A stretch of 64,000 nt of DNA, from NCBI RefSeq assembly GCF_038502225.1, contig NC_091382.1:9033113-9097112 (forward strand), in the 5' to 3' direction. A program made the translations under genes and the position numbers. Positions 4,198 to 59,679 of the stretch are shown piece after piece; positions within the stretch are counted from its first letter, which is position 1; every line of letters starts with the position of its first letter. The notes under the pieces were generated by a model. The model saw only the letters and a list, made by a program, of their open reading frames with translations, had not been told where the DNA came from and ran no database searches. This DNA comes from Cherax quadricarinatus. Taxonomy: Eukaryota > Arthropoda > Malacostraca > Decapoda > Parastacidae.

Positions 4198-4651
4198 AAT
4201 CAGACTGTGTTACTTCAGACTTAATACCCGTTTTTATGCAACAGTTCAAGCGATCTCGGACATACAATGCCACCCCACCCCCCTTTCCGACACTTCTATC
4301 TACTTGGAACAATTTAAAACCCTGGATGTGACATTCTGCAGGCATGTCTCGACTTTTTGAATTAAACCACGTCTCAGTAATGGCAAATACATCTATGTTA
4401 CCTGCACTAGCAACTAGTCTCAACTCGTCCATCTTATTCCTAGCACTGCGACTATTTGTGTAATAAATATTTAAAGACCCTCCTCTCTCTTGACCCTTCC
4501 TGCTCCTTTCTGTTTTTCCACTAAACCTATTACTGTCCTTGTCAATTAGTGCCACTGGCTTTCCAATATCCACCTCATTTTGCCTATTACTAGTTCTCCT
4601 AGTACTCATATTACTACCCTGCGACTTCACAGTTTTCCCGCAAAAACCCAT
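4181..4651 (-). pseudogene. CR1-like ORF2, N-terminal endonuclease fragment
   Basis: 156 residues beginning MGFCGKTVKSQG. It contains the APE motif YYTNSRSARNKMDELR, the catalytic Glu in ITETWFN, and KGGGVALYVRD. It breaks off after KSEVTQSD at the internal deletion and reads out of frame. Its start codon lies 14 nt after the ORF1 stop (4666), the same spacing as in the copy at 38817/38832. Confidence 0.8.
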
Positions 4652-4665
4652 ACCACTAACTATTC

Positions 4666-5631
4666 CTAGTTTAAAGACCTAACAGCTCCCTCCACTGCGT
4701 TGGCCAGTGCTCCCACCCCACACCTAGATAAGTGAACCCCGTCCCTGGCATACATGTCATTTCTGCCATAGAAGAGGTCCCAGTTGTCAATGAATGTTAC
4801 TGCATTTTCCTTACAGTATTTGTCCAGCCAGCAATTGACACCAATTGCTCTGGACAGCCATTCATTTCCAACTCCTCTCCTTGGCAAAATGCCACATATG
4901 ACAGGTTTCCCACCCTTCCTCCTAATTATCTCTATTGCTGACCTATACCTGCTAATCAGGTCCTCACTCCTACGTCTGCCAACATCGTTGCCTCCAGCAC
5001 TGAGACAGATAATAAGATTACTCCCATTACCTCTCATGATGTCATCCAGACGGCTAACAATATCCTTCATCCCAGCCCCAGGGAAACACACACTCTGCCT
5101 CCTACTCCTATCCTTCAAGCAGAATGCCCTATCCATGTACCTAATCTAGCTATCCCCAACAACAACAATGTTTTTACCTTCCTTGGCATCGTCCGTCATG
5201 ATGCTCCGAGTAGTCGACTCACATTCGCCAGGTAGCATTACACCACTTGTAGAATTCGTCAAGACGTTCTCGATGGTCTTCGTTGGGGTTTCTAGGGATG
5301 TCTCGCTCACGTCTGCCAATGCTTCTTTGGTGCTCGTTGTGGCATTCCCAGTAGAACACTCACATTCGTCAGGTAGCACCGAGAATGGGTTGGAAGTTTC
5401 CACGGTAGTCTTCTGGTTTCTCGTTGTTTCTGCCTCTCCAACCGTTTTCTTGATCTTCAGCTTGGTTCCAAGTTGCCCGGCCACTGACCAAGCTCCCCTC
5501 TTAACCTGGGGACTCACAACAGGAGGATTACTACGAATCCTCTTGTTCTCCTTCGTTAATCGCCGTATCTCCATCTTAGCAACTCTGAGCTCTTCTCTCA
5601 GCTGCTGGTAAAGTTGCTCAAGAGAGGGCAT
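4666..5631 (-). pseudogene. CR1-like ORF1 with SGNH esterase domain, one nonsense codon
   Basis: ORF1 has an N-terminal coiled-coil-like stretch (LYQQLREELRVAKMEIRRL), a low-complexity linker, and an SGNH/GDSL esterase domain with a GDS block, the GGND block (ICLSAGGNDVG) and the DGVHLS block. The two open pieces (5146-5631 and 4666-5136) are in the same frame. They are separated by a TAG directly after GDS, where the intact relative at 10894-11820 has Gln (GDSQVRY). A single CAG to TAG change therefore inactivates an otherwise complete ORF of about 320 residues. Esterase-type ORF1 is a known feature of CR1-like LINEs. Confidence 0.85.
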
Positions 5632-10894: not shown

Positions 10895-10896
10895 CA
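10892..10896 (-). promoter_or_regulatory. TGATG stop-start overlap between ORF1 and ORF2
   Basis: The plus strand reads catca here, so the minus strand reads TGATG. TGA ends ORF1 and ATG starts ORF2 with a shared G-less overlap of one base. Such overlaps are known to couple translation by termination-reinitiation in some two-ORF LINEs. That it works this way here is inference. Confidence 0.75.
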
Positions 10897-11820
10897 GTTT
10901 AAAATCATAGGCATTTCACCAATGGCCTTCTCAATCGAGTCTGCAAGTGCTACCACCCCTGCCCCAGAGAGATGTACCCCATCCCTTGCATACATATCAT
11001 GTTTGCCATAAAAGTTGTTCCAGTTGTCAATGAATGGGATTGCAAGTTCCTTGCAGTATCTGTCTAGCCAGCAATTTACACCAATTGCCCTAGACAACCA
11101 TTCATTTCCTACTCCCCTTCTAGGCAAGATGCTACATATGATTGGGATCCCTCCCTTAGACTTAATGAAATCTATAGCTGACCTGTACTTATCTAGCAGC
11201 TCTTCTCTCCTACCCTTCCCAATATCATTTCCACCAGCACTGAGACAGATAATGGGCTTGTTCCCATTACCTGACATGATATTATCCAGCCTGTTGACAA
11301 TGTCCCCAACACCAGCTCCAGGGAAGCACACTCTATCTCTCATCTTCTTATTCCTATTACAAAAAGCACGGTCAATATATCTTACCTGAGAGTCACCAAC
11401 CACAAGAATGCGCTTACCTTCATTAGCAGGGGCAGTAGTACCCTTACCTTCACTGGCCACTGAAGTACATTCATCCTGGAGAACAGAGAAGCGATTTCCT
11501 ACCTTCAGATCTTCACTCTTAACTTTCCTTACTCTGATGCGCCTCCCATTACTGTGAACAACTCGCCACTTGTAGCAGGTGCTGGGCTGCACCTCACTGC
11601 TGGTAGCCGTTGCTACCTCCCCAACCACAGCCTCCTCACAGCGAGAGACAGACTGCACCTCACTGCTAGAAGTCTCATTCCCCACAACTCCAGCCACCTC
11701 ACACTCTCTCCCAGACCCATTGAGGTGGACCTTCAGCCTCCTAATCTCCTCCTGGAGAAGCAAGACCTCCTCCTTCAACTCTCCAACCTCAGTTTTTAAA
11801 ACACTGCAGAAGCAAGCCAT
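10894..11820 (-). CDS. CR1-like ORF1: coiled coil plus SGNH esterase, 308 aa
   Basis: The N-terminal part (about 10-33) is a leucine/glutamate-rich coiled-coil candidate. A Ser/Val/Glu-rich linker follows. An SGNH hydrolase domain begins at about 136: block I GDS at 142-144, GGND at 196-199 and the DGVH pair at 280-283, so the Ser, Asn, Asp and His positions are all present. Esterase-type ORF1 proteins are established for CR1-like LINEs. The enzymatic substrate is not evident. The ORF starts about 40 bp from the element's 5' end and ends in the TGATG overlap with ORF2. Confidence 0.9.
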   Translation of the reverse strand: MACFCSVLKTEVGELKEEVLLLQEEIRRLKVHLNGSGRECEVAGVVGNETSSSEVQSVSRCEEAVVGEVATATSSEVQPSTCYKWRVVHSNGRRIRVRKVKSEDLKVGNRFSVLQDECTSVASEGKGTTAPANEGKRILVVGDSQVRYIDRAFCNRNKKMRDRVCFPGAGVGDIVNRLDNIMSGNGNKPIICLSAGGNDIGKGRREELLDKYRSAIDFIKSKGGIPIICSILPRRGVGNEWLSRAIGVNCWLDRYCKELAIPFIDNWNNFYGKHDMYARDGVHLSGAGVVALADSIEKAIGEMPMILN

Positions 11821-11939
11821 GCTTTGTAACCGTCCACGCTAATCCCCAAAGCAGCTCAGGGTCTGTAGATCTATGGTACGGACCCTCAAAGGGTTAATGT
11901 AGGAAGAGAAATGAGTAGTATTTATTTGTAGGAAGTCAG

Positions 11940-13900: not shown

Positions 13901-14230
13901 TGAATAACAATTACATCTCTAGTGTTTTCTATGAATTACTTCATTTTTTGAATGCAGAGGTCCAGAAAGATACACAAAATTCTTATCCATTTATGAAATT
14001 ATGTATAATTTTCTAATAGATATATTTACTGTAATGGTATATATAATGTATTTTCTTAAAACATTTCTGTTTTTCATAATATCAGCACCTTGCTTGCAGT
14101 TTTATAGTTACTTCATTAGATCTGTATATTGATTTAATATGAGAGCAATTTACCAGTAAATGTTGATTGTGTATGTTCAAGTAACTGGCATTATAGCCTT
14201 TAGTAATGCTGATGTACTCTTCTTTATAAG

Positions 14231-14449
14231 GTAACCTTTCATCTCAAAACGGTAATGGAAGCGGTGGTATCAATTGCTCAATTCGAAGAGTAACATCAGA
14301 TAAGGGGTGGGGAGAGGTTGAAGTTGGAGCAGGAAATGGTCTGACTATAGCAGCCAAAGCCTTCAGAAACTTTTCCCGTGGTATGTTTGGAAATGGATCT
14401 GTCATTACACATTTCACTCCTAATGGACTACGTGTGGGCACAGTCACAA
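14231..14449 (+). CDS. DNAJC11: DNAJC11-like coding exon (first visible)
   Basis: 219 bp between the acceptor ttataag and donor gtaagt. The first two bases complete a codon from the previous exon and the exon ends one base into a codon. It encodes NLSSQNGNGSGGINCSIRRV, then TSDKGWGEVEVGAGNG and FRNFSRGMFG. This matches the region of DNAJC11 that follows the J domain and linker (the conserved STQNGNG and VTSAKGWGELEFGAG segment). DNAJC11 is a mitochondrial protein linked to the MICOS/MIB cristae complex. The J-domain exons would be upstream of the window. I found no convincing earlier exon in bases 1-14230. Confidence 0.9.
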
Positions 14450-14577
14450 GTAAGTGTTGAATGTCTCTTGATCTTGTACTTGTTCTGATAATTTTAGACA
14501 TAATTTGTAATTTAGAAAAGTAATACGGCCGGTGTGTTGAAAGAAAGATGTAATATACAGTATTTTACAAACATTAT

Positions 14578-14810: not shown

Positions 14811-15018
14811 CTTTAGCAAACCAGTTAGATAAGCATACAGTGGGTTATCTGACATGGAAGGCTGGGATGCAGAGTGGCATGAACACAATGATTATTCGTG
14901 ATACTCCCTTCCAGCATTTAGTGTGCTCTGCATATATTGGTATACCACACACCTATATTGCAGTGTCTTATACTCACAAGATGCCAGAACAGGAATACAA
15001 AGTAAAGTTAACGGGCAA
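14811..15018 (+). CDS. DNAJC11: DNAJC11-like coding exon
   Basis: 208 bp, from acceptor tctttcccag to donor gtaagt. The single leftover base of the preceding exon plus CT gives Thr and keeps the frame. It encodes LANQLDKHTVGYLTWKAGMQ, then SGMNTMIIRDT and IGIPHTYIAVSYTHK. This corresponds to the DNAJC11 segment with LDKNTVGYLQW, SAMNTSIVRDT and LGIPHSFALISYQHK. It ends two bases into a Lys codon. Confidence 0.93.
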
Positions 15019-17200
15019 GTAAGTGGGTATATTGTTTAAATTATATAGTCTTAAGTTACTTTTAATCTGAAGTGCTTTGCTTCTTAGGGCACAGTACTTG
15101 CCCTACTTCTGTTTCTCATTCTTACATGGACATAAATAAAGACATAAACCCTAGTGCTATGGAATGGAGGAAATAAAGACTGAAACAGAACTTTTGTTCT
15201 GTTGAACCATTCATTAGAGCAAAAGTTCCGTGTGAGACTTGTGAGTGATAATGTCAGAAGATCTCGCATTCAAGGATCACAACAATGTTGCTGTTGATAA
15301 GATACATTATCTTTGAAAGCTTAAGTCAGTCAACAGAAGAACTAGTTATAACACAGACCAATTTCTCAAAATTCACCAGCTCTTTAAATTTGAAGTCACT
15401 TAAAAGTTGGATTCTCAAGTTATTAACATTTAATGAGGCATTCACAAATTATATGCATGAAAACCAGGTTTTCAAGTTTTTTCAGTTTCTTCAATAAAAT
15501 TAGCACCTCCCCAGCCCTAGAACTATCCAAACAGTTCTGATTTCAGTTCACCAGGATTTAGGATTTGAAGTCGATCAGAAGAGGAATTTCCCAGTTATTG
15601 CTCGGAATCCAACAATAGTTTTTTTAATTTTGTTACTGAATTGGCTTAATGCATCTACACAGCCTAAGCTTATAGGGTATCATCCTGTCCATAAGATCCA
15701 TCTGTCATTAGGGATTGAACCCTCTCAGAAGAGGCATAGGACTTTAGTTATTTAATGAAAAATTTTGCAAATTGGCACCTGTGTATTCCAGTAACAATCC
15801 CAACCTCCTCCTAGGTAGCATGCACTGGTGTTGAAAGTTTGAAGCTAATCTAAAGCAGCTTTCCCTAGATACCATATGGAATACAGAATTGGAAATGGTC
15901 TATATAAAATTGACCAGAGGATACCTTCACAGTAGTTGTATGAGCTTTTCCCTAGTTACTGTACACCAGCACTGAATATTTGAAGTCGGTCGAATAAGGC
16001 ATTCTCAGGTTACAAATGGAAACCTTGCTAAAAGAAGAAAATACTGTCAGCCACTTAAAGTTATCCCTTCAGGGATGTTTGATAATTGTAACTTTCCACT
16101 GGTTGTATCACTACATCCTCATATCATCCATTCCATCGTTCTACAACTGTGAAGATTTTCTTAAATCCTTTCGGCCAGTATGTAGTTGTGGGATCTTTTT
16201 CTTCTGTTGTTGGTGCTAAGACATCTTTCTTAGCTTTTTGTTATATCTTTCGTACTTTTTAGTGCTGAATTCTTCCATTCTAATGCATAATTCACAGGTA
16301 ACGCGCACTGTAATGCAATTATTCCATTCATGGTATTGTCTTGTATTCTTTAACTCGTGGTTTTTGCTTTTAAAACCCATTTTGCAGCTGGGCTTCATGA
16401 TTTTTCCATCTTGTATTTGCTGATATCTCACCCCAGCTCTATATTGTAATTTTGGCCTGATATATTATGTGAACAGTTTTTCTAGTTTTTCTCCATCCAT
16501 ATATCTAAAGACCATTTTAAACTTTATCATTAAAACTTGAATATTTCTCAAATAGTATAATTTCTGTATATTGGTTTTGATAAACCACTAAAAATACACT
16601 TATCAGGTTTGTCTTCTGTATCACCAGTTGGAGGACCTTCCTACTTCATTTTGCTCAGTGTAGCTTTCCCTGCCACATTTTAATGAGAGAAGCCATTTTC
16701 TACCTTTCATAATCTAATGGATTCTTGTTTTCCATGCAGCCACAGGACTGCCCCAGTGGGCTGGACCTCATTCTTATATCAGGCATCTTCAGATAAGCAC
16801 CTCCCTTTTCTGTTGTCTATTAAGGGCAGATTTTTGTCTGCTAATGTAGAGTTGGGTAACAGGCTCAGATCAGGTGATAGCACTAGGCCCAATTGTTTAT
16901 GTAGAGCGAAGGAGTGATAGACTTACCCTGTGTTTAATACAGAGGCCTTGTAGAAAATGGTGTCCTCAGGATATAAAAGTACAGAATTCCATATAGAGGA
17001 ATGGAGGAGATTGTACAAACTTCTCAAGAAAGGTGCCTTAATGTTGGTAAAGGGACCTTCTGTTTCTTAAACATAATTACTTCCCATTCCAGACAATGTG
17101 TGATCCTCATGAGTTTAATATTAACTTTACTATGATAATATAGATCATAAATAGTACATAATATTACAGTTATTGAAGCTAATGACCTATTGAACAAACC
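15019..17200. other. Start of a 13.4 kb DNAJC11 intron, no gene seen
   Basis: AT-rich intronic sequence with only short random frames. No splice-bounded coding exon or dated element could be supported. Traces of duplicated phrasing (tttgaagtcgatcagaagagg near 15566 and tttgaagtcggtcgaataagg near 15978) suggest an old degenerate repeat. Confidence 0.5.
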
Positions 17201-28229: not shown

Positions 28230-28453
28230 TATATTTCCTCTAGAATATGATTAGTTTGATATATAAGAAAAATGTCATTACTTGTGGAATTTAGCTGCTT
28301 ATTTTGTAGGCTACCCAACCTATGTATTTGTTTATTTTTTTAATACTCTGCTACATATTTCCACAACTTGTCTCTGTACAGTACTTTGAGAGACCTTAAA
28401 AAACACTGTTATTTTTTGACATAATCACTAACATTACATGTTACATTTTGCAG
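28230..28453. other. Intron end upstream of a DNAJC11 exon
   Basis: AT-rich sequence ending in the acceptor acattttgcag. No other feature. Confidence 0.6.
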
Positions 28454-28570
28454 AGCTGGTACATTTGGAGCCATATTAGAGTATGGAGCAGAGAAGAAAA
28501 TTTCCCAGAACAGCTCTCTTGCTGCATCTCTTGCACTAGGTATACCAACAGGTGTTCAACTCAAAATCAA
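28454..28570 (+). CDS. DNAJC11: DNAJC11-like coding exon
   Basis: 117 bp, from acceptor ttttgcag to donor gtgagt. Two bases carried from the exon ending at 15018 plus the first A give Lys. It then reads AGTFGAILEYGAEKKISQNS and LALGIPTGVQLKIK. This matches the DNAJC11 AGFFGTVVEYGAERKIS and GVPQGVSLKVK region. It ends two bases into the next Lys codon and is separated from the previous exon by about 13.4 kb of element-rich intron. Confidence 0.93.
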
Positions 28571-28644
28571 GTGAGTGTAGTACTGGAGTTTGAATATTAT
28601 GTGTGAAAGTATATTTATAAACGTGGGAGAAGATCACTTTTAAA

Positions 28645-29799
28645 TACAGTGGAAGCCCGGTTTTCATCTGGTCTGGTTATCATACAATTCAGTTTTCGAC
28701 CACTTTTTTTGGCGAAATTTTCCTCGTTTTCGTACATCTGCTCGGAAATTGTCCATACCAGATGCATCCGCCTGCCCGTGGGACGCGGCCACTCACATGT
28801 TCGTGACTCAGTCTGCCTTTGTTACTCGTTCAGTGAGCATTACTCCATGCGATCCTCTGAAACATTTCGTAATCCATTGTTTTTTGTGCTTGCAACTGCT
28901 AAATAAGCCACCATGGGGCCAAAGAAAGTTCCGAGTGCTACAAGGATTTTGAAGGGTTTGAGGCTAACCCTCCCTCCCTTATGCCTGTTGTGGTATCTAT
29001 TGTGTCTTTGGGGAAGTCCATGGGGCTGGAGGCGAGTGGCCAGGATGTGGAAGAGTTGATGGACGATCACAGGGAAGAGCTAACCACTGAAGAGCTGCAA
29101 GACCTTCATCTGGAACAACAACAGACCTTAGCTGAGGAAATTGCTTCCAAGGAGGAGGAAGAGAGAGGGAAGAATGTGCCTTCTTCAACAATTAAGGACA
29201 TTTATGCAAAGTGGAGTGAGATGCAAAGTTTTGTGGAGAAATATCACCCTAACAAAGCTGTTGCAAGCCATGTCAGCAACATGTTCAATGACAGTGCCTT
29301 GTCCCATTTTAGGCAAATCTTAGAGACACCAGAAACAGGCCTCTCTGGACAGATTTTTTGTGTGACAGGGGTCCAGTGACTCTCAAGCTGGTCTTAGTGC
29401 CAGTAAAAGACAAAGAAAGGAAGTAACCCTGGATAGGGCTTTGATATCTGAAGTCCGTATGGAGGGGGATTCCCCTTCTAGACAATAACCTCTCCTCCCT
29501 CTCACCTCCTCGCCATCTTCCATGTGCCAGCAAGAGTCTTAAGTAAAGTTAAAAGTGATGTTAAATGTTCATTTATCCATTTCATTAGTGTGTTATATTT
29601 ATTTCTCATTGTTTTATGTATGTAAAACTATAGTTATTCTCTATAAAATGTATTTTTTGTTGATATTTTTGGGTGTCTCGAATGGATTAATTGGAGTTAC
29701 ATTATTTCTTATGGGAAATATTACTTGAGTTATTGTGCAAATTGGTTTTTGGCCGACCTTCTGGACCAGATTAAAGATGAAAACCAGGGTTCCACTGTA
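28645..29799 (+). mobile_element. Tigger deletion derivative
   Basis: Inverted ends CAGTGGAAGCCCGGTTTTC and GAAAACCAGGGTTCCACTG, flanked by TA, 1155 bp. The interior joins the start of a Tigger transposase (MGPKKVPSATRI at about 28912) to its C-terminal region. The DNA-binding and catalytic core is missing. The right inverted repeat was probably built from the poly-A-adjacent end of the autonomous element. Confidence 0.85.
28912..29379 (+). pseudogene. Tigger transposase remnant (N-terminal tip and C-terminal tail)
   Basis: The frame 28981-29379 (132 residues) contains EELTTEELQDLHLEQQQTLA, SSTIKDIYAKWSEMQSFVEK, HPNKAVASHVSNMFND and ALSHFRQIL. This is the conserved C-terminal tail of TIGD1-like transposases. 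The start at 28912 (MGPKK) is in a different frame. No CENP-B HTH or DDE region lies between, so the protein is non-functional. Confidence 0.75.
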
Positions 29800-42199: not shown

Positions 42200-42780
42200 A
42201 GAGTTGCACATGTGTCTAATTTATCAAAATGTTGGTTCTCTGAACCATTCATCTACAAACTTTTTCTTAAATTGTGTGTTTCTCACATTCTTTACCAAAG
42301 GGCTGGCACTAGAAGCTTTCCTTGGAGCCATGGTGACTTATTTAGCAGTTGCAAACACTAAAACGAATGGAATATTATAAAATATATCGTATGAACTCGT
42401 GGGATCATCCTCACTCACTGATAAACAATGGCGCACTGGCTGGGAAAGGAGTGTGAGGCGGCTCGGGGCTGTGTGTACCTGTCCCAGACGAACTACTATT
42501 TGCGAGTCAATCTATGATTAGCGAGCCCATGTTTATGTGAAAATATCCCTATGATTTCCGAAATTTACGATTCTCGAGAACTACGATAATCGAGGGACCA
42601 CTGTACTTTTTTCATTACTAATGCTGTTTTTGTATACGCTTTAGTGTGGTAATATATTTATTTGAGGATTTTTGAGCTATTGCATGGAGAAGCGGTGACT
42701 GAATTAAAAAATTGAATGCATACTATATATTAGCTTTATAAGTATTATTTAGTACTGTATTGGCTTTTAACTGTTGACAG
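42200..42780. other. Right end of the Tigger-type element and intron end
   Basis: Repeat text (ggttctctgaacc block), a decayed Tigger N-terminal stretch on the minus strand at about 42294-42350, the element's right inverted end at 42585-42605, and then intron to the acceptor tgttgacag. Confidence 0.5.
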
Positions 42781-42972
42781 GCTTCATCGTGCATCTCAGA
42801 CCTATGCTGCAACTATAATGCTGTGCGAGGAAATCTTGCCAGCACCAGTAATCTATGGGACATTGGTACCTCTTATGAGTTGGTTAGCTGTTCAAAAACT
42901 CATCATTCAACCATATATGCGGCAACAGAAACAAGCAGAGCTACTTAAGCAGAGAGAAGCAAACAGAAGCAG
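42781..42972 (+). CDS. DNAJC11: DNAJC11-like coding exon
   Basis: 192 bp, from acceptor ctgttgacag to donor gtatga. One base completes the Lys codon begun at 28570, then LHRASQTYAATIMLCEEILP, VIYGTLVPLMSWLAVQKLII and PYMRQQKQAELLKQREANR. The match is to DNAJC11 LNRASQTYFFPIHL, the predicted hydrophobic segment, and the charged KPYLRAQKEKELEKQRE helix. It ends two bases into an Arg codon that the next exon completes. Confidence 0.94.
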
Positions 42973-42998
42973 GTATGATAAATTGCTTGTTAAGAAGT

Positions 42999-43315: not shown

Positions 43316-43761
43316 TATTTCTTATTTTTGGGGGGTCACTCTCTTCTTTGTGGGAAATGGTCGGTGTGTTAAAAAATAGTATTTTTTATTTCAAGTAAAC
43401 CATGCACAAAGTACACTGTCTTATTTTTGTTTTACTTTACTACAGTTAGTGATGGCTTCTTTGTTATCATCAACACTGAATAAATTTATCATGAGAAAGC
43501 TTGTGACAATAACAAGGGTATTTTTTGATCCTTTGGTTAGTTTTCATTCACTTGTAAGTGTATCTTTATGATTCCTGACATTTTTGGATAGTTTTCATTC
43601 ACTTGAGCTGATATTTTAGTAATATTATTGCTAGCAGCTGAATGTATAATTCCTGGAATATTTTTTATCTCTTACATTTTAATAAAAGATTAAGGACCAT
43701 TTAATTTTAAATTCCATATTGTAAAAATGTGACCTCAAGATAGATTTTTATGCATTATTAG
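43316..43761. other. Remaining intron before the last visible exon
   Basis: AT-rich, with a direct repeat of ggatagttttcattcacttg-type text (about 43535-43610). A block at 43330-43370 resembles the RTE 3' end (gtgggaaatggtcggtgtgt). No gene. Confidence 0.5.
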
Positions 43762-43869
43762 ATTATTAGAGAAACGTCGTGAGGCTCTGGCAGCTGTGGA
43801 GTTGATGCGAGAAACAGTGAGAAGAATAGTAGAGCAAGAAGAAGCACGGAAAGGTCTCGTCATACTCCA
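43762..43869 (+). CDS. DNAJC11: DNAJC11-like coding exon (last visible)
   Basis: 108 bp, from acceptor tgcattattag to donor gtaagt. A completes Arg, then LLEKRREALAAVELMRETVR and RIVEQEEARKGLVIL. This matches DNAJC11 [21 protein letters not shown] and MGLIIV. The acceptor has a weak pyrimidine tract. The alternative AG a few bases later would break phase. The following exon (expected to start with an AWYGKF-like segment) was not found to 64000, so the next intron may exceed 20 kb. Confidence 0.92.
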
Positions 43870-43904
43870 GTAAGTTCTATATTGATTTGGCTTCCTAACA
43901 CAAA

Positions 43905-47949: not shown

Positions 47950-48007
47950 GTACGTGACATTTAATACGCCTCAGAGTGACTATTATTGTGTATTATTATT
48001 GTCATTA

Positions 48008-48222
48008 TTAACCCGTAAATGGTCCAAGCAGATCTACGTTCACATGTGTAGTGCTCCAAATGTAGATCTACGTTTTTTTTTTTTTTACATATTTTCAAAC
48101 AAAAAAATAGATCAAATTTTTTTACACAATTTCAAATGTAAAAAAAAAAAAGATCTACTTTTTCTACATACTTTCAAATGTTGAAAAAACGTATATATAC
48201 GTTTGGATCGTTTACGGGTTAA
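48008..48222. mobile_element. Short TTAA MITE, 215 bp
   Basis: TTAACCCGTAAATGGTCCAA at the left and the inverted GGATCGTTTACGGGTTAA at the right. The interior has several copies of an agatctac and tttcaaatgt theme with poly-A and poly-T runs. It has a TTAA duplication like the larger MITEs but distinct ends. Confidence 0.8.
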
Positions 48223-48340
48223 TATGACGTCCTCAAGATTAATAAGACACTTTTAGTGATTTTAAAGTGTACCTGCATGCCAGCACAGTGTGTAAGTTTA
48301 TTTAGGTACAATTACACACAAGTATAATTATCGGAGTACA

Positions 48341-48864
48341 TTTTTTTTTTTTTCAACAAGTCGGCTGTCTCCCACCGAGGCAGGGTGATCCAAAAAGAAA
48401 GAAAATCCCCAAAAAGAAAATACTTTCATCATCATTCAACACTTTCACCTCACTCAAACATAACCACTCTTTTTGCAGAGGTGCTCAGAATACAACAGTT
48501 TAGAAGCATATACGTATAAAGATACACAACATATCCCGCCAAACTGCTAATATCCCAAAACCCCTCCTTTAAAGTGCAGGCATTGTACTTCCCATTTCCA
48601 GGACTCGAGTCCGGCTATATAAAAATAACCGGTTTCCCTGAATCCCTTCACTAAATATTACCCTACTTACACTCCAACAGATCGTCAGGTCCCAAATACC
48701 ATTCGTCTCCATTCACTCCTATCGAACACGCTCATGCACGCCTGCTGGAAGTCCAAGCCCTTCGCCCACAAAACCTCCTTTACCCCCTCCCTCCAACCTT
48801 TTCGAGGACGACTCCTACCCCACCTTCCTTCCACTACAGATTTATACGCTCTCTGTGTCATTCT
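48341..48864 (-). mobile_element. RTE LINE 3' end, truncated
   Basis: Poly-T at 48341, the 3' UTR, and the last 60 or so codons (48685-48873: KSVVEGRWGRSRPRKGW, FQQACMSVFDRSEW, end at VFGT). It is cut at 48865 by the left end of another element (TACAGTACAACCTCTACTTG). It belongs to the same subfamily as 24231-28110 by its 3' UTR. Confidence 0.85.
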
Positions 48865-49169
48865 ACAGTACAACCTCTACTTGCGAGTTTAATCCGTTCC
48901 TTGACTTTGCTCGCCTCAGGATTTGCTCGTTTGCAGAGTCGATTTTACTCATTTAAATTAATTGAAATAGAATTAATCTGTTCCAGTGGAATTCTGTTCT
49001 TCAATACGTAATTTCCCTGACATCAACTCTATGGTTTATTTATCTATCACAATTCGTCTAATATGACAATAAACAATATAAATGACATAGAAACCTGATA
49101 TATACTCTAGAATGAATAAAATACATGTATGTCATTATGTGACAAGTGCAGGCAGCCATAAAGACGCAC
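48865..49169. mobile_element. Left end of a Tigger-like element
   Basis: TACAGTACAACCTCTACTTG followed by gcgagtttaatccgttcctt has the sense of a TA-flanked Tigger end. The text atttatctatcacaattcgt near 49040 also occurs at about 38190. No right end was identified. It may be lost in the adjoining satellite. Confidence 0.45.
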
Positions 49170-50550
49170 TCACTACAGTAGTGTAGCTACATACACTACA
49201 GTAGTGTAGCTACATACACTACAGTAGTGTAGCTACATACACTACAGTAGTGTAGCTACATACACTACAGTAGTGTAGCTACATACACTACAGTAGTGTA
49301 GCTACATACACTACAGTAGTGTAGCTACATACACTACAGTAGTGTAGCTACATACACTACAGTAGTGTAGCTACATACACTACAGTAGTGTAGCTACATA
49401 CACTACAGTAGTGTAGCTACATACACTACAGTAGTGTAGCTACATACACTACAGTAGTGTAGCTACATACACTACAGTAGTGTAGCTACATACACTACAG
49501 TAGTGTAGCTACATACACTACAGTAGTGTAGCTACATACACTACAGTAGTGTAGCTACATACACTACAGTAGTGTAGCTACATACACTGCAGTAGTGTAG
49601 CTACATACACTACAGTAGTGTAGCTACATACACTACAGTAGTGTAGCTACATACACTACAGTAGTGTAGCTACACACACTACAGTAGTGTAGCTACACAC
49701 ACTACAGTAGTGTAGCTACACACACTACAGTAGTGTAGCTACATACACTACAGTAGTGTAGCTACATACACTACAGTAGTGTAGCTACACACACTACAGT
49801 AGTGTAGCTACATACACTACAGTAGTGTAGCTACATACACTACAGTAGTGTAGCTACACACACTACAGTAGTGTAGCTACATACACTACAGTAGTGTAGC
49901 TACATACACTACAGTAGTGTAGCTACATACACTACAGTAGTGCAGCTACATACACTACAGTAGTGCAGCTACATACACTACAGTAGTGTAGCTACATACA
50001 CTACAGTAGTGTAGCTACATACACTACAGTAGTGCAGCTACACGCACTACAGTAGTGCAGCTACACGCACTACAGTAGTGTATGTAGCTGCACTACTGTA
50101 GTGTATGTAGCTGCACTACTGTATTGTATGTAGCTGCACTACTGTAGTGTATGTAGCTACACTACTGTATTGTATGTAGCTGCACTACTGTATTGTATGT
50201 AGCTGCACTACTGTAGTGTATGTAGCTACACTACTGTAGTGTATGTAGCTACACTACTGTAGTGTATGTAGCTACACTACTGTAGTGTATGTAGCTACAC
50301 TACTGTAGTGTATGTAGCTGCACTACTGTATTGTATGTAGCTGCACTACTGTATTGTATGTAGCTACACTACTGTAGTGTATGTAGCTACACTACTGTAG
50401 TGTATGTAGCTGCACTACTGTATTGTATGTAGCTGCACTACTGTATTGTATGTAGCTACACTACTCTAGTGTATGTAGCTACACTACTGTAGTGTATGTA
50501 GCTGCACTACTGTAGTGTATGTAGCTTCACTAGTGTGTGTAGCTACACTA
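49170..50550. repeat. 23-bp satellite arranged head to head
   Basis: About 39 forward copies of tacagtagtgtagctacata plus cac run from 49170 to about 50075, then about 20 copies of the exact reverse complement to about 50540. Each unit contains the palindromes CACTACAGTAGTG and GTAGCTAC. Variants (gcagctac, cacacac, tattg) are grouped in blocks, as expected for local amplification. The switch lies within cactacagtagtg at about 50069-50081. Confidence 0.95.
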
Positions 50551-50935
50551 CATCTTAACTATAATACATTCACTACATCTTAACTATAATACATTCACTA
50601 CATCTTATAATACATTCACTACATCTTAACTATAATACATTCACTACATCTTAACTATAATACATTCACTACATCATAACTATAATACATTCACTACATC
50701 TTACCTCTTATACATTCACTACATCTTAACTCTTATACATTCACTACATCTTATAATACATTCACTACATCTTATAATACATTCACTACATCTTATAATA
50801 CATTCACTACATCTTATAATACATTCACTACATCTTATAATACATTCACTACATCTTATAATACATTCACTACATCTTATAATACATTCACTACATCTTA
50901 CCTCTTATACATTCACTACATGGTATCTATAATAT
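50549..50935. repeat. Second satellite, 21- and 25-bp units
   Basis: About 17 units of cattcactacatcttataata (21 bp) or the longer form with cttaactataa (25 bp). It adjoins the 23-bp satellite directly and shares its cactac theme. Confidence 0.9.
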
Positions 50936-51928
50936 ATTCACAAAAATATTATGTTAGTTCTGATGTAACTATAAAGTTTATAGTTACTATGAACATGAAC
51001 GTGGTGGTGATATCTTTAGTTAATATTGTATTTCAGTTGTCACTGATCGAAACAAAATGAATATTAAAGATTAATTTTCTGGTTTGTGCGTCAAGGGCGG
51101 TGTAACACTTGAGATGCCCGGCGACGCTTATTAGCAAGATGTTTGCAACTTTATTTTGGAACGAATTAATGGAACGAAATCACCTTCCCTGAAAAGCGTA
51201 TGCTAAAGCATAATAACCGAGCTAAAACAGCTAAGGAAAATGGATGAGAATGGGTTGTTTGTTTTTTCAGTATTGTGCAGGCGGGAGGAAGACGAGGATT
51301 ATAAAATAGTGTTAAAAACTGTTGTTCCTCCTCTGAAAATTAAGTCTCTTCAGATGCGAGCAAAGATAGGAGGGATCGACACTTCCCTCCTTGAAGAAAT
51401 GTAACAGGAGGAACGACTCCGCCAGAAGGCCATGGAGAAGGAACGACTCCGCCAGAAGGCCCTCGAAGAGGAGCGGCTGAGGCAGGAGGCCGTGATTGAG
51501 GAGCGACGACTCCAGGCCCTAAGACTACTGCCGGAATTTTCCGACATGAGTATCAAGGGAGCGGTAACCGTTGAAATACCCGGTGATATATGTATTTAAA
51601 ACGTAACCAACTTCATCTGGGAAGCTATTAACGGTACCAAGTCACCTACCCTGAAAAAGGTGTACACAAGCATAATAACGGAAGTGCAGGAGATAAGAAA
51701 AATGACTGAGAACGGGTTGTTTGTATTCTCAGTCCTCTGCAGACGTGACGAAAATGAAGAATATAAAGTTTTGGTAAAAAAAGTGATCTCCCCTTTAAAA
51801 ATCAAGTGTCTACAACAGCGGACAAAGATAGGAGGGATTGACACTTCTCTGCTTGAAGAAATGTGGCAGAGGTCAGAAAAAGCAGTTCCACAGCTTCAGC
51901 AACAGACTGTGGAGCAGTAGCAGCTCCG

Positions 51929-53068
51929 GCAGCAGGCCGAGGATGAAGAACGTGTCCGGCAGCAGGCCGAGGATGAAGAGCGTGTCCGGCAGCAGGCCGA
52001 GGATGAAGAGCGTGTCCGGCAGCAGGCCGAGGATGAAGAGCGTGTCCGGCAGCAGGCCGAGGATGAAGAGCGTGTCCGGCAGCAGGCCGAGGATGAAGAG
52101 CGTGTCCGGCAGCAGGCCGAGGATGAAGAGCGTGTCCGGCAGCAGGCCGAGGATGAAGAGCGTGTCCGGCAGCAGGCCGAGGATGAAGAGCGTGTCCGGC
52201 AGCAGGCCGAGGATGAAGAGCGTGTCCGGCAGCAGGCCGAGGATGAAGAGCGTGTCCGGCAGCAGGCCGAGGATGAAGAGCGTGTCCGGCAGCAGGCCGA
52301 GGAGGAAGAGCGTGTCGTGTCGGCAGCAGGCCGAGGATGAAGAGCGGCTCCGGCAGCAGGCCGAGGATGAAGAGCGGCTCCGGCAGCAGGCCGAGGATGA
52401 AGAGCGTGTCCGGCAGCAGGCCGAGGATGAAGAGCGTGTCCGGCAGCAGGCCGAGGATGGAGAGCGTGTCCGGCAGCAGGCCGAGGATGGAGAGCGTGTC
52501 CGGCAGCAGGCCGAGGATGGAGAGCGTGTCCGGCAGCAGGCCGAGGATGAAGAGCGTGTCCGGCAGCAGGCCGAGGATGAAGAGCGTGTCCGGCAGCAGG
52601 CCGAGGATGAAGAGCGTGTCCGGCAGCAGGCCGAGGATGAAGAGCGTGTCCGGCAGCAGGCCGAGGATGAAGAGCGTGCCCGGCAGCAGGCCGAGGATGA
52701 AGAGCGGCTCCGGCAGCAGGCCGAGGATGAAGAGCGTGGGCCGCCGGCCGAGGATGCAGAGCGGGTCCGGCAGCAGGCCGAGGATGAAGAGCGTGCCCGG
52801 CAGCAGGCCGAGGATGAAGAGCGTGCCCGGCAGCAGGCCGAGGATGAAGAGCGTGCCCGGCAGCAGGCCGAGGATGAAGAGCGTGCCCGGCAGCAGGCCG
52901 AGGATGAAGAGCGTGCCCGGCAGCAGGCCGAGGATGAAGAGCGTGCCCGGCAGCAGGCCGAGGATGAAGAGCGTGCCCGGCAGCAGGCCGAGGATGAAGA
53001 GCGTGCCCGGCAGCAGGCCGAGGATGAAGAGCGTGCCCGGCAGCAGGCCGAGGATGAAGAGCGTGTCC
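51929..53068 (+). repeat. 30-bp coding-type tandem array, about 38 units
   Basis: The unit cggcagcaggccgaggatga is followed by agagcgtgtc. Because 30 is divisible by 3, all six frames can stay open. The frame consistent with both flanks reads RQQAEDEERV. Unit variants (gtgtc, ggctc, gtgcc, gatgg) are grouped in runs. The array is GC-rich against AT-rich surroundings. One unit is altered to gtgtcgtgtcgg (about 52310-52325) and one to gtgggccgccgg (about 52736). Confidence 0.95.
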
Positions 53069-53334
53069 GGCGGCAGCTGGCCGTGGAGGAGCAGCAGCTC
53101 CGGCAGCTGGCCGTGCAGGAATAGCTCCGGCTCCGGCAGCTGGCCGTGGAGGAGCAGCAGCTCCGGCAGCTGTCCATGGAATAGGAGCTCCGGCTCCGGC
53201 AGCTGGCCGTGGAGGAGGAACAGCTCCGGCAGCTGGCCGTGGAGGAGGAGCTCCGGGTCCAGCAGCTTGCCATGTAGGAGCAGCAGCTCCGGCAGCTGGC
53301 CCTGGAGGAGGAGCTCCGGCTCCGGCAGCTGGCC

Positions 53335-53766
53335 GTGGAGGAGGAGCGGCTCCGGCAGCTGGCCCTGGAGGAGGAGCTCCGGCTCCGGCAGCTGGCCATG
53401 GAGGAGGAGCGGCTAAGGCAGCTGGTCGTGGAGGAGGAGCTCCGGCTCCGGCAGCTGGCCGTGGAGGAGGAGCTCCGGCTCCGGCAGCTGGCCGTGGAGG
53501 AGGAACGTCTCCGACAGCTGGCCGTGGAGGAGGAGAAGCTCCGGCAGCTGGCCGTGGAGGAGGAGTTCCAGCTCCGGCAGCTGGCCGTAAAGGAGGAGCA
53601 GCTCAGGCAGCTGGCCCTGGAGGAGGAGCGTTGCCGACCAAAGTTCACAAATGCACTTACTCGCTTTTACCAAAAATATAAGTTCCTTCTTGTGGTTATG
53701 ATCACAATGTTTTTGGTTATGGCGGGATTATTTGCCTACCACATGTTCTTAAATTACAGAGAATAA
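53335..53766 (+). CDS. Clean C-terminal frame of the coiled-coil locus, 143 aa
   Basis: It is open from the last in-frame stop region to the natural stop. Residues 1-105 are LRQLAVEEE-type repeats of 9-11 residues that predict a continuous charged helix. Residues about 114-136 are a single hydrophobic segment preceded by basic residues (YQKYK), then HMFLNYRE. Topology is inferred as cytosolic N-terminus with a C-terminal anchor. This piece could be translated alone only if a local promoter and start existed, for which I see no evidence. Confidence 0.45.
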   Translation: MEEERLRQLALEEELRLRQLAMEEERLRQLVVEEELRLRQLAVEEELRLRQLAVEEERLRQLAVEEEKLRQLAVEEEFQLRQLAVKEEQLRQLALEEERCRPKFTNALTRFYQKYKFLLVVMITMFLVMAGLFAYHMFLNYRE

Positions 53767-53767
53767 A
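53762..53767 (+). terminator. AATAAA overlapping the stop codon
   Basis: The stop TAA (53764-53766) lies inside aataaa (53762-53767). It is the canonical poly-A signal hexamer, but a function is not shown. Confidence 0.35.
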
Positions 53768-54370
53768 ATTTGAGTTCATACATGTAGTTTGATAATTTGT
53801 GCGCCGAGGTATCTCACATGTGTTTTTTAAAGTATAATTATTGAACAAATTTCAATATAGTCCGAAGGCCACCTCCTCCAGAATGATTAATTGACAGACG
53901 TGATTAGAAGGATTTGCTTGTTGGTTATTTAGATTTTTGTGTTTATGTTCTTGAGTTTGTTTTATTGCAGAGTTGATAGTAAATGGTACAGTGTTACTGA
54001 CCTAGTTTTGGCCTGCTGGTCAGTACACAAATAACCCACACATAGGAGAGAGAAGGTCATTACGATGTTTCGGTATGACTTGAACTATTTACAAGTCACA
54101 CTGTAACTTGTAAATGATTGAAGTTGAGCCAAAATGTCGCCATAAACTTCTCTCTCCTATGTCTGGATATTTGTGTATTGAAATCTATTTCCACCCACAT
54201 TATTCCATCCTTATGCTAATGCTACCCAAGAAATTAGGGGGCATTGACCCCCGAAACCCTCTCCAGGTAAACTTCAGGTATGTTATGCAGGTTGTAATCA
54301 AATCTAACTCTTAAGTAAGTTTACTCGGGAATAGATACACACAAATACAGTTACACAAATTATTATACAT
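53768..54370. other. Stretch without recognised gene
   Basis: No supported frame. A self-complementary pair occurs near 54077-54110 (tgacttgaactatttacaag and cttgtaaatgattgaagttg), and gggggcattgacccccgaaa lies near 54237. Confidence 0.4.
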
Positions 54371-54644
54371 AGCTGTTTACCTGAAAAGAGTTCCGGGGGT
54401 CAACGCCCCCGCGGCCTGGTCTGGGACCAGGCCTCATGGTGGATCAGCGCCTGATCAACCAGTCTGTTACTACTGGCTGCACGCAATCCAACGTACGAGC
54501 CGCAGCCCGGCTGGTCAGGTACCGACTTTAGGTGCTTGTCCAGTGCCTGCTTAAAGACAGCTAGGGGTCTATTGGTAATCCCCCTTATGTATGCTGGGAG
54601 GCAGTTGAACAGTCTCAGGCCCCTGGCACTTATTGTATTGTCTC

Positions 54645-55695
54645 TTAACCCTTTGACTGTTTCAGGCCCCTGTCGCTATGTCGCCAAATATTCGAAAAAA
54701 GAAAAATTATTTTTTCTTATGAAATGATAGAGAATCTTTTCCCGATGGTAATGACACCAAAAGTTCGAAATTTGGTCGAAAACTCATGGAATTACGCTCC
54801 CGCGAAGTTAGCGGAATCGGCGACATGTGTATCGGCGATTTTGCCGACTTTGAGCCCTGTTTTCAGCCAATTGACCGAACTCATAGCTATTTCTTTAGAA
54901 CTTCATTTTATCTATCAGCTGAGTACAAGAAACTGCCCATTTACCAATTTGACCTACCCAATATAGTGGTCAGAAATTGGCAATTTGGCCAATTTCACGC
55001 AATTTAAAAAAGATGCCAGTTTCAAAATATGGTCCAGAATAAACAAGGTAGACATTCTTGGCACTAAAATAGCATATCCTCTGTTCATTAGTCACATCTC
55101 TAGGCCCCTCTTATATTATTATTGCTTTCTAATTTTATTTTTTATTCATACAAAAAAATACAAAATTTACTATTATGCAGACTACTGCATTATTGTAAAA
55201 ATGGTATAAATAATATCAGTGCACTAGTGAAAGAATATTGGACTCCCAGTTGACGTGTATTGGACGTGTGTTGTGATTTGTTTACTCCTGAACATTGGTA
55301 AAAATCGAACATTTCCGCTAATTTGAGCTCAGTTTCAAGGTCGTTTTCATCGTCAAAGTAATGAAAATCATCTCTATTTCTGTAATATGTTTTCCATTTT
55401 ATCACCTAAGACCATGAAAACGCGAATACAACGATAAATATTATACGAAAATACACCTCAAAGTCGGCGTTTTATTAAAAAAAAAAAGTTTTTTTTTTTT
55501 TTCTTATTACACAATGTGTGCTGCAGGATTTTTTTTATGTGGTGCACACTGACCACACAGACCCATTCTCTCACATGTGGGCCTACCAGCTTTCTCCCAC
55601 TTGATTTGAAGCTGCTAGTATATATTTAGTATATATACGTCAGAAACATTGGCTTGTAAGACGTATTTATACGTCGAAAACAGTCAAAGGGTTAA
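54645..55695. mobile_element. TTAA MITE with the same ends as the neighbouring piggyBac
   Basis: 1051 bp between TTAA duplications. The left end ccctttgactgtttcaggcc corresponds to the inverted right end of the piggyBac at 62260. The right end (inverted) ccctttgactgttttcgacg, followed by gtataaatacgtctta, corresponds to the piggyBac left end at 57257. Similarity extends well over 100 bases on at least the piggyBac-left side (tcaaatcaagcggg, gagagaatgggtctc). There is no transposase frame. Confidence 0.9.
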
Positions 55696-57250
55696 CGTGC
55701 TAGTGACCCCTGCTTTTCATTGGGGGGATGTTGCATCGTCTGCCGAGTCTTTTGCTTTCGTCGCGAGTGATTTTCGTGTGCAAGTTCTGTACTAGTCCCT
55801 CTAGGATTTTCCAGGTGTATATAATCATGTATCTCTCCCGCCTGTGTTTCAGGGAGTACAGGTTCAGGAACTTCAAGCACTCCCAGTAATTGAGGTGTTT
55901 TATCTCCATTATACGCGCCGTGAAGGTTCTCTACATTTTCTAGGTCAGCAATTTCACCTGCCTTGAAAGGTGCTGTTAGTGTGCAGCAATATTCCAGCTT
56001 AGATAGAACAAGCAACCTGAAGAGTGTCATCATGGGCTTGGCATCCCTAGTTTTGAAGGTTCTCATTATCCATCCTGTCATTTTTCTAGCAGATGCGATT
56101 GATACAATGTTATGGTCCTTGAAGGTGAGATCCTCCGACATGATCACTCCCAGGTCTTTGACGTTGGTTTTTCCTTCTATTTTGTGGCTGGAATTTGTTT
56201 TATACTCTGATGAAGTTTTAATTTCCTCATGTTTACCATATCAGAGTAACTGAAATTTCTCATTGTTGAACCTCGTATTGTTTTCTGCAGCCCATTGAAA
56301 AATTTGGTTGATGTCTGCCTGGAGCCTTGCAGTGTCTACAATGGAAGACACTGCCATGCAGATTCGGGTGTCATCTGCAAAGGAAGACACGGTGCTGTGG
56401 CTGACATCCTTGTCTATGTCAGATATGAGGATGAGAAACAAGATGGGAGCGAGTCCTGTGCCTTGTGGAACAGAGCTTTTCACCGTAGCCTCCTCAGACT
56501 TTACTCTGTTGACTACTACACTTTGCGTTCTGTTTGTAAAGAAATTATAGATCCATCTACCAACTTTTCCTGTTATTCCTTTAGCACGCACGTTGTGCGC
56601 TATTACGCCATGGTGACACTTGTCGAAGGCTTTTGCAAAGTCTGTATATATTACATCTGCATTCTTTTTGTCTTCTAGTGCATCTAGGACCTTGTCGTAG
56701 TGATCCATTAGTTGGGACAGACAGGAGCGACCTTCTCTAAACCTATGTTGCTCTGGGTTGTGCAATTGATGGGTATCTAGATGGGTGGCGATCTTGCTTC
56801 TTAGGACCCTTTCAAAGATTTTTATGATATGAGATGTTAGTGCTGTCGGTCTGTAGTTCTTTGCTATTGCATTACTGCCCCTTTTGTGGAGTGAGGCTAT
56901 GTCTGTTGTTTTTAATAACTGTGGGACGACCCCCGTGTCCATGCTCCCTCTCCATAGGATGGTAAAAGCACGTGATAGGGGCTTCTTGCAGTTCTTGATG
57001 AACACTGAGTTCCACGAGTCTGGCCCTGGGGCAGAGTGCATGGGCATGTCATTTATCGCCGTTTCAAAGTCATTTAGTGTCAGGATAACATCAGATAGGC
57101 TTGTGTTTACCAAATTCTGTAGCTTTCTCATAAAAAATTCATTTTGATCTTCGACTCTCAGTCTGGTTAGCGGCTTGCTAAAAACTGAGTCATATTGGGA
57201 CTTGAGTAGCTCATTCATTTCCTTGCTGTCATCTGTGTAGGACCCATCTT
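55692..57250 (-). pseudogene. Reverse transcriptase of the decayed LINE
   Basis: The frame 56241-57218 (325 residues) includes APGPDSWNSVFIKNC, KNYRPTALTSHIIKIFERVL, YTDFAKAFDKCHHGVIAHN (Asp), SSVPQGTGLAPILFLILISD and SFADDTRICMAV (catalytic Asp pair). The frame 55692-56147 continues MTGWIMRTFKTRDAKPM and LFRLLVLSKLEYCCTLTAPF. The frame change at about 56200-56240 and further lesions beyond make it non-functional. The style is that of CR1/Jockey-group LINEs; the clade is not settled. Confidence 0.8.
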
Positions 57251-57471: not shown

Positions 57472-57966
57472 ATGCCTCTCGGTAAGAAGTTCCTCACTCC
57501 TTGGCGGATTGGAGGTCTTTTGTTCCCAAGTGATAGCTCTAACAGCAATGAAAATGTCAGTGACAGTGAATTCCAGGGTTTTGAAGTGAGTGTTACCGGA
57601 AAAAGTGCCCAGGATAACGTAATTAGTGATGAAAACCCAGATGACCCACAACCTTCCACCTCTGGTGCTGGGCCGGCTTGTTAACGTTCATGTTCGCTGG
57701 TACCAGGACGAAAGAGGAAACTATTTGGTCGTGTACAACACCCAGATGTTAGCAGTGAATGTGATAGTGATAGTGATTTCAAGGTCATTGAAAGCAGTTC
57801 TAGTGACAGTGAGAGTGAATATTCCCCAGTGAAGCGGCAGTATGTACGACGTAGCATGCGGTCTGGTAGTGTTTCATATGTTGTTCCAAGGGGAAGGAGA
57901 AACTCTGGGAGCACATCCCGTGGCCCTACACCATGACCTGATAGTGAAGATGACGATATTATAACG
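57472..57966 (+). pseudogene. Damaged N-terminal part of the piggyBac transposase
   Basis: 57472-57684 reads MPLGKKFLTPWRIGGLLFPS, then a Ser/Asp/Glu-rich stretch ending PQPSTSGAGPAC at a stop. In another frame the text continues with a basic and acidic region (GRKRKLFGRVQ, ECDSDSDFKVIESSSSDSES, RGRRNSGSTSRGPTP) until TGA at about 57936, after which DSEDDDI enters the main frame. Acidic Ser-rich N-termini are usual in piggyBac transposases. The lesions suggest the gene is no longer fully intact, unless the main frame alone suffices or an intron is removed here. Confidence 0.65.
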
Positions 57967-59679
57967 ATGGGTATGAATGATGTGAGTGAGGGAGCAGGCA
58001 GTGGTGGTGATAGTGAGGGTGGCATGGCCCATGTGGCACCATCAGCGGGCCAAGCTACTACCCACGCTGCTGACTCTGCACAACAACCAGCCTCACCCTA
58101 CCCCACACTCCCACAACCTGCACAACCACGGTACAATATCCAGACCCCACCAGCAGACCACATCTGGGATTGGCAGGACGGTGACGAGTTTGTTCCCAGT
58201 CCCCATGACTTTGATGAAACACAAAGTGGAATAAAGCCATCTTGTCCACTTGGGAACAATGCCAGTGAACTGGACTGCTTTGAGTTATTCTTCAATGAAC
58301 CCCTGATGGACATCATTGTCAGGGAAGCAAACACATACTGTGATTACACCATGGCAAATACAATTCTCTCACCAAAATCACGGCTACACAAGTGGAAGGA
58401 GACAACTGTGGCAGAGATGTACCTGTTTTTTGCCACAATAATGCTTATGCCACATGTGTATAAGCACACTGTCACCACATACTGGGCAACAGAACACCTG
58501 ATTTCAACTCCAGGTTTTAGTGACATTATAGGTGTCAATCGTTTCCTGATACTGTTATGTATGTTACACTTTTCAGACAAAACCAGGCCTGACAGAAGCG
58601 ACAGGTTATATAAGATAAGAAATGTGCTTATGTACATGAAACAAAAGTGCTGCATGTATTTTTATCCCTTCAGGAAGCTTGTTATTGATGAGTCCTTGAT
58701 TTTATTCAAAGGAAGACTCTCATTCAAGCAATATATACCAAGCAAGAGGAAACGCTTTGGTATAAAGCTATTTGTACTGTGTGATTGCAGAAGTGGTCTA
58801 GTTTTGGATATCATTGTGTACACTGGCAGTAATACTTTGAGAGATACCATGAAGTTATTGGGTATCTCTGGTGATGTGGTTCGAACAATGATGGAACCAT
58901 ATCTTGGTAAGGGGCATATGTTATTTACTGATAACTGGTACACAAGCCCCTTACTCAGTGATTTCTTGCGAGTGAACTTGACAGACGTGTGTGGCACAGT
59001 GCGTCGTAATCGTAAACATATACCAAGGTTCGATGCTGGCACTCGCAGAGGTGAGGTGCAAGCCTTTGCTGCCAATGACATCATGACATTTCGGTGGCAT
59101 GACAAATGTGATGTCACATTTTTGACATCAGTTCACAGAAACGAAATGGTACACAGTGGCAGGCACAACAGAGAGACCAATGAACCCATTCTAAAGCCTG
59201 CAGCTGTCATGGACTACAACCTCAATATGCGCTTAGTGGACAAATGTGACATGCAGATTGGGTTTGCAGACTGTGTACGCAAGAGTTATAAGTGGTATAT
59301 AAAACTTTTTTTCCATCTTGTTGATATCTCTCTGCTAAATGCTTATAACATATACAAGTTGAAGACCAACAAAACACCAAAATATGGTGAATTTTGCCTG
59401 TCAGTAATCAGACAAATAATTGCAAAGTACCAAGGAGCAACTCCTGCAATAGACCAGCGCCCACACTCGTCATCTCGTTTCAGGCCTGGTGATCACTACC
59501 CCATACAACTGCCTCCTACTACTGCCAATAAAAATGCTCAGAAGAGGTGTTATGTATGTATGCATACCACAAAACGCCCACAAACACGCAGAGACACTCG
59601 TTTTATGTGTGAGGAGTGTGAAGTGCCCCTCTGCATATACCCATGTTTCAAAGAGCTCCACAAGCTGCAGCAGTTCTAG
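57967..59679 (+). CDS. piggyBac (PGBD-type) transposase, 570 aa
   Basis: A cut-and-paste DDE/D transposase that inserts at TTAA. The DDE_Tnp_1_7 region spans about residues 100-470. Catalytic candidates are Asp241 in VIDESLILFKGR, Asp322 in FTDNWYTSPLL and Asp425 in MRLVDKCDMQ, with the usual DNWYTS and GIKLFVLCD surroundings. A C-terminal Cys-rich domain has Cys at about 528, 531, 548, 551, 556 and 560 (CYVC, CEEC, CIYPC), the metal-binding domain of the family. Upstream coding-like sequence (57472-57966) suggests the original protein began earlier, so this Met may be internal. It lies within matched ends and is the best transposase candidate for the MITE at 54645. Confidence 0.9.
   Translation: MGMNDVSEGAGSGGDSEGGMAHVAPSAGQATTHAADSAQQPASPYPTLPQPAQPRYNIQTPPADHIWDWQDGDEFVPSPHDFDETQSGIKPSCPLGNNASELDCFELFFNEPLMDIIVREANTYCDYTMANTILSPKSRLHKWKETTVAEMYLFFATIMLMPHVYKHTVTTYWATEHLISTPGFSDIIGVNRFLILLCMLHFSDKTRPDRSDRLYKIRNVLMYMKQKCCMYFYPFRKLVIDESLILFKGRLSFKQYIPSKRKRFGIKLFVLCDCRSGLVLDIIVYTGSNTLRDTMKLLGISGDVVRTMMEPYLGKGHMLFTDNWYTSPLLSDFLRVNLTDVCGTVRRNRKHIPRFDAGTRRGEVQAFAANDIMTFRWHDKCDVTFLTSVHRNEMVHSGRHNRETNEPILKPAAVMDYNLNMRLVDKCDMQIGFADCVRKSYKWYIKLFFHLVDISLLNAYNIYKLKTNKTPKYGEFCLSVIRQIIAKYQGATPAIDQRPHSSSRFRPGDHYPIQLPPTTANKNAQKRCYVCMHTTKRPQTRRDTRFMCEECEVPLCIYPCFKELHKLQQF

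Follow-up and report, generated by a model that had tools for sequence, protein, structure and literature searches.

The stretch of DNA analysed here, called the window below, is a 64,000-nucleotide piece of the genome of the crayfish Cherax quadricarinatus (assembly GCF_038502225.1, contig NC_091382.1, positions 9,033,113 to 9,097,112 of the forward strand), and all positions are window coordinates. Between 51057 and 53766 it holds a decayed reading frame, all parts of which lie on the plus strand. The frame starts with an ATG at 51057 and spans two modules of about 110 residues each, module A (51075-51404; 51057-51404 with the ATG) and module B (51537-51866). The original prediction had put the module at about 95 residues; its duplication stands, and its size is nearer 110. 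The repeated unit is a module together with a coil, as E/R/Q-rich 10-residue repeats follow each copy, in a short, stop-free run between the modules (the linker, 51405-51539) and in a long run after the second. The layout originally proposed, a module pair followed by a coil array, was right about the array and is corrected by the same type of coil between the modules. A short Q-rich spacer (51867-51920) ending in an in-frame TAG (51918) leads into the long run, which consists of a near-perfect 30-bp minisatellite array (51921-53076) of about 38 units coding for RQQAEDEER(V/A/L) and a C-terminal coil of mixed 10- and 11-residue units of the RQLAVEEELRL type (53071-53640). Tandem Repeats Finder (TRF) counts 38.4 copies of the 30-bp unit at 51925-53076, 37 exact anchor words were found, and related units continue to 53630. 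The frame closes with a basic juxtamembrane piece, a hydrophobic segment (FLLVVMITMFLVMAGLFAY) and an 8-residue tail (53641-53766), and its final TAA (53764) overlaps an AATAAA.

The hydrophobic segment has a mean Kyte-Doolittle value of 2.5 over 19 residues and ends 8 residues before the stop. It was the best 19-residue segment in a hydropathy scan from 52318 onward, the earlier part being judged by eye, which bears out the single C-terminal segment originally described. This agrees with tail-anchored membrane proteins, whose only membrane segment lies no more than about 30 residues from the C terminus. The description of the locus as GC-rich holds for the array and coils only; GC at third codon positions (GC3) is 0.43 and 0.47 in the modules vs 0.71 in the linker. 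Long minus-strand open reading frames (ORFs) over the array appear to arise from the composition of the repeat. Upstream of the ATG, an acceptor-like TTTCAG ends at 51036 and is followed by open sequence (51037-51056), a weak signal read by eye, given which there may once have been a 5' exon upstream of the module exon.

The present copy is broken. Nine in-frame stops, all TAA or TAG, interrupt the frame, four in module A (51072, 51132, 51204 and 51402), one in module B (51597), one at the end of the spacer (51918) and three in the C-terminal coil (53122, 53182 and 53275), and there is one frameshift near 52316, inside the array. The locus also reads as a decayed copy and so does not attest to a working gene at this site. 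Of the two options first offered, a membrane-anchored helical rod fused to a small domain or the remains of one, these lesions bear out the second.

The two modules show that the locus was once a gene. They match without gaps over 262 nt at 74% identity and a fixed spacing of 462 nt, and their translations are 65-69% identical, depending on trimming and with stops read as Q. The mismatches at codon positions 1, 2 and 3 number 27, 16 and 53 in 111 sites each (chi-square P 1.3e-7), a skew which indicates that the likeness is not due to chance and was maintained at the protein level. A codon comparison over 106 of the 109 codon pairs, the three stop-bearing pairs being excluded, gave pS 0.66 and pN 0.16, hence pN/pS 0.25 (bootstrap 0.16-0.36), with dN 0.19 and dS 1.58. 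Since pS is near saturation, the duplication is old and the dS value is rough. The modules diverged under protein-level selection, and a chance ORF or a pure minisatellite is ruled out by the codon-position and pN/pS tests.

Profile comparisons connect the module with the stop-codon-recognition (N) domain of the release factors a/eRF1. The NCBIfam profile TIGR03676 matches the A+B pair in two stretches (E 4.1e-7), module A alone (E 1.4e-4) and the intact 65-aa piece of A (E 2.3e-4), and gave no match with module B alone; the pair score of 29.2 bits, vs a whole-protein cut-off of 234.7, speaks for remote homology only. A purpose-built release-factor hidden Markov model (HMM), made from 82 rows (80 archaeal N domains plus human and yeast), scored A at 17.8, B at 13.5 and the pair at 29.8 bits; the best of 10,000 shuffles reached 9.6. 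Against the same 82 rows, hhalign gave 91% (P 1.2e-6, 98 columns) in a local and 81% (P 1.5e-6) in a global alignment. Module and N domain are colinear over these 98 columns at about 20% identity, most clearly near ENGLFVF / PPNGLVxF and then in a PP..I..xxR segment. All three sequence-profile tests agree on a/eRF1 in the same register; Pfam returned no match for the module.

Structure comparison used two low-confidence models of single modules. In Foldseek searches of the PDB, a/eRF1 entries took ranks 1-15 of 217 in one search and 1-12 of 377 in the other. The model of module A appears to share with the a/eRF1 N domain (PDB 2llx, 1dt9, 4af1, 3vmf) the order strand, helix, helix, hairpin. Balon, a bacterial ribosome hibernation factor that we take to be kin to the aeRF-1 superfamily, gave a weak match (8v9j, 8v9l) on a low-confidence model. 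As judged from these profiles and models, the module and the N domain of a/eRF1 are remotely homologous, an assignment that is new here. A clear match of the module to a known family had been named beforehand as one of the findings that would refute the original prediction, and this remote match goes part of the way towards it. The original statement that no family with this architecture was known stands, as none was seen among described families in four profile libraries or in the titles and abstract openings of the papers searched. A small domain outside every known family, in contrast, is not supported, the module having a remote relative in a/eRF1 N.

The likeness to release factors does not extend to their working parts. 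None of the motifs NIKS, YxCxxxF, GTS and GGQ occurs in the 903-letter reading of the frame. About seven residues are missing at the position of the eRF1 NIKS protrusion in the hhalign alignment, and the pattern Y.[CT]...F is absent, the nearest aligned letters being LQMRAKI / LQQRTKI. No Pfam match to the eRF3-binding C domain was found in the C-terminal ORF, for which no dedicated test was made; the remaining reading is coil and membrane segment. The lack of stop-reading motifs and of GGQ indicates that the modules are not stop-codon readers of a known type and that the protein, as read from its motifs, is not a release factor. According to the parts of PMC2613156 consulted, NIK and YxCxxxF are near universal in a/eRF1, apart from cases among ciliates and in a few archaea, and are absent from the eRF1 paralogue Dom34/Pelota, which does not read stop codons. 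In contrast to a/eRF1, the locus combines two tandem copies of the module with a coil rod and a membrane anchor and lacks all four motifs. It resembles Dom34/Pelota in being, like that eRF1-family protein (PMC2613156, same parts), without NIKS, YxCxxxF and GGQ and apparently non-stop-reading. However, Dom34/Pelota carries M and C domains besides an N domain of different build, whereas the locus shows only modules, coil and membrane segment, a comparison made by description. The VLRF-1 and baeRF-1 proteins, as described in the sections of PMC6514570 consulted, come in varied architectures that retain or have lost the stop-codon-binding domain, and archaeal aVLRF-1 likewise joins a long coiled coil to a stop-codon-binding domain. 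They differ from the locus in that the part they keep, according to those sections, is the catalytic RNase H-fold core, and the sections mention neither a membrane anchor nor tandem N domains.

The array has a history of its own. No stop falls within it, whereas the stop density of the other parts would predict 8.3 (Poisson P 2.4e-4; P 0.0027 when the nine stops are just distributed over the frame), even though codons one step away from a stop are commoner there than elsewhere. This points to homogenisation of the tandem copies after the death of the gene, so that the array as it stands is probably younger than the decay. Among the 34 array units in regular register, identical variants sit in local blocks, and the units carry five base differences from the commonest unit, three of which change an amino acid. 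The best match of the linker coil is to the C-terminal coil, at up to 75% along 111 nt (E 4e-15), while its likeness to the array is lower, at 73% along 86 nt (E 1e-8), which suggests that the array is probably a late expansion of a single coil unit.

Searches of 5.77 billion proteins returned no relative at E <=10 (4730 and 4857 candidates). They depended on shared 5-residue words and covered proteins of about 230-733 and 497-1580 residues; relatives below about 45% identity, by our estimate, or in shorter fragments could escape them. In the same database an ORF of the surrounding gene DNAJC11 (14813-15019) found DNAJC11 of C. quadricarinatus (100% identity) and named decapods from other genera (80-87%), which makes a close annotated relative of similar length unlikely. 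IMG/VR held no relative when searched with module B or the A/B alignment, although endogenous crustacean viruses may lie outside that collection; as a yardstick, viral eRF1 gave 41 pattern-matching stretches in IMG/VR, none of them confirmed. No relative of module B was confirmed among prokaryote genomes. The PADLOC anti-phage library (Cmr5, E 0.018) and the PHROGs phage library (best E 0.14) gave chance-level matches, as did the PDB by sequence where it gave any. Rfam at gathering thresholds found no structured RNA in 49000-55500.

We favour, with somewhat more confidence than doubt, the explanation that the locus is the decayed remnant of a host-lineage gene, hitherto undescribed, for a tail-anchored rod protein with two repurposed eRF1-N modules. 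Its host origin is what we infer from its place in an intron of a conserved host gene, between LINEs (long interspersed nuclear elements) and satellites. In the intact protein a single membrane segment would have stood at the C terminus and a long helical rod, rich in E, R and Q, in the cytosol; its two modules would derive from the a/eRF1 N domain or share an ancestor with it. The membrane segment would insert post-translationally as a tail anchor, leaving the remainder, on this predicted topology, in the cytosol. Repeats with E and R 3-4 residues apart are expected to form a long helix, presumably rod-shaped; at 1.5 A per residue the roughly 385 residues of the array would span about 58 nm, although the present array length says little about the ancestor. 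The distal modules may have bound the ribosomal A site or another structured RNA without decoding, with the rod tethering this binding to the membrane. Judging by their ancestry, the modules most likely kept an ancestral kind of job, RNA or ribosome binding.

A broader proposal, which we put forward tentatively and consider rather unlikely, is that a family of membrane-tethered rod proteins with tandem eRF1-N-like modules exists in crustaceans, or did so until recently. These proteins would not decode, would bind ribosomes or RNA at a membrane and would compete with or modulate termination there; living members would be unannotated or too divergent for a word-based search. The eRF1 N domain is usually regarded as an invariable component of a universal factor with three domains, and tandem non-decoding N domains on a membrane-anchored rod would be an architecture that we did not meet in the consulted parts of PMC6514570 and PMC2613156 or in literature titles and abstract openings. 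Such an architecture would also suggest that animals can put the N domain to uses other than stop-codon reading. The gene was clearly under past protein-level selection, yet no relative was found in a database that contains decapods.

Other origins have to be weighed against a decayed host gene. The locus could go back to a gene of a large DNA virus or mobile element, inserted into the crayfish genome and left as a fossil after neutral decay. We regard this as unlikely. Genes of that kind can have a single intronless coding exon, domains duplicated in tandem and a tail anchor, endogenous nimaviruses are known in crustaceans (PMC10871703), and the absence of a relative among the proteins searched, even with C. 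quadricarinatus present, would fit repeat masking. However, neither module B nor the A/B alignment found a relative in IMG/VR, and a comparison of 48001-51925 with 53081-57000 gave matches of more than 44 nt only within the locus's own coil, so that no flanking repeats were seen. Inspection of the nearby ORFs by eye showed no other recognisable viral gene either, the neighbours being satellites, LINEs and a piggyBac-type transposase. A separate concern is that the eRF1 likeness reflects a shared simple fold only, as in ThermoDBP, and that the module is an unrelated, undescribed domain. This appears improbable to us, given that the three profile tests recover a/eRF1 in one register and that Foldseek places a/eRF1 first with both module models.

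Two features of the stops weigh against simple decay, neither of them strongly. The stops in the modules are numerous for so few differences between amino acids. The values observed in 110 codon pairs were 4 stops and 33 differences; a coarse simulation with 400 runs for each of 18 settings gave a best joint P of 0.07 for reaching or exceeding that number of stops without exceeding the number of differences. Moreover, TGA is missing among the nine stops, which is mildly unlikely at most, as from the codons present the expected share of TGA among one-step stops would be 26% for module A, 21% for module B, 27% for the linker, 7% for the C-terminal coil and 1.5% for the array. Both features would suit a gene that is alive and whose TAA and TAG are read as an amino acid, through either readthrough or recoding. 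Such a gene would be remarkable for a release-factor-like protein; CAR, too, follows 3 of the 9 stops. We nevertheless give this very little credence. The frameshift also breaks the frame, the lack of TGA carries little weight given the one-step shares, it is hard to credit a single message with nine readthrough events, and under the standard code the window's long reading frames of LINEs, transposase and DNAJC11 stay open. An alternative code with TAA and TAG as glutamine was considered because all nine stops are of these two kinds, and was judged unlikely.

The intron position originally suggested for the locus was confirmed. Protein matches place DNAJC11 exons on the plus strand at 14197-14451, 14813-15019, 42779-42973 and 43760-43870, and a further plus-strand exon at 28452-28571 belongs to isoform X2 (P0002) and not to P0001. 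The coding piece that follows exon 43760-43870 has no match in the window. With five plus-strand exons upstream and no match to the next piece in the window, the locus lies in a same-strand DNAJC11 intron of at least 20 kb. It is downstream of two satellites (49171-50941) and adjoins LINEs. The satellites, directly upstream of the gene, have 23-bp and 21/25-bp units, and the GC and AT skew of the 23-bp array flips sign near 50000-50500, which may mark an inversion inside the array. Downstream, 57937-59679 (+) is an uninterrupted 580-aa transposase ORF, which we take to be of the piggyBac type, with a DDE_Tnp_1_7 match (E 2.2e-76) and a zf-Tnp_2 finger; it is possibly a young copy. The introns of 13-14 kb that flank DNAJC11 exon 28452-28571 hold LINE frames. 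A 158-aa ORF at 28903-29379 (+) has no Pfam match at 1e-3 and looks like part of a Tigger/CENP-B-type transposase. At 4666-5145 (-), upstream of reverse transcriptase (RT) frames at 2854-4678 (-), a separate LINE ORF matches GDSL esterases (Lipase_GDSL_2, E 1.9e-10), and an ORF that looks similar by eye (10894-11838, -) adjoins the RT frame at 7949-10915. An esterase ORF1 is known in CR1-like LINEs.
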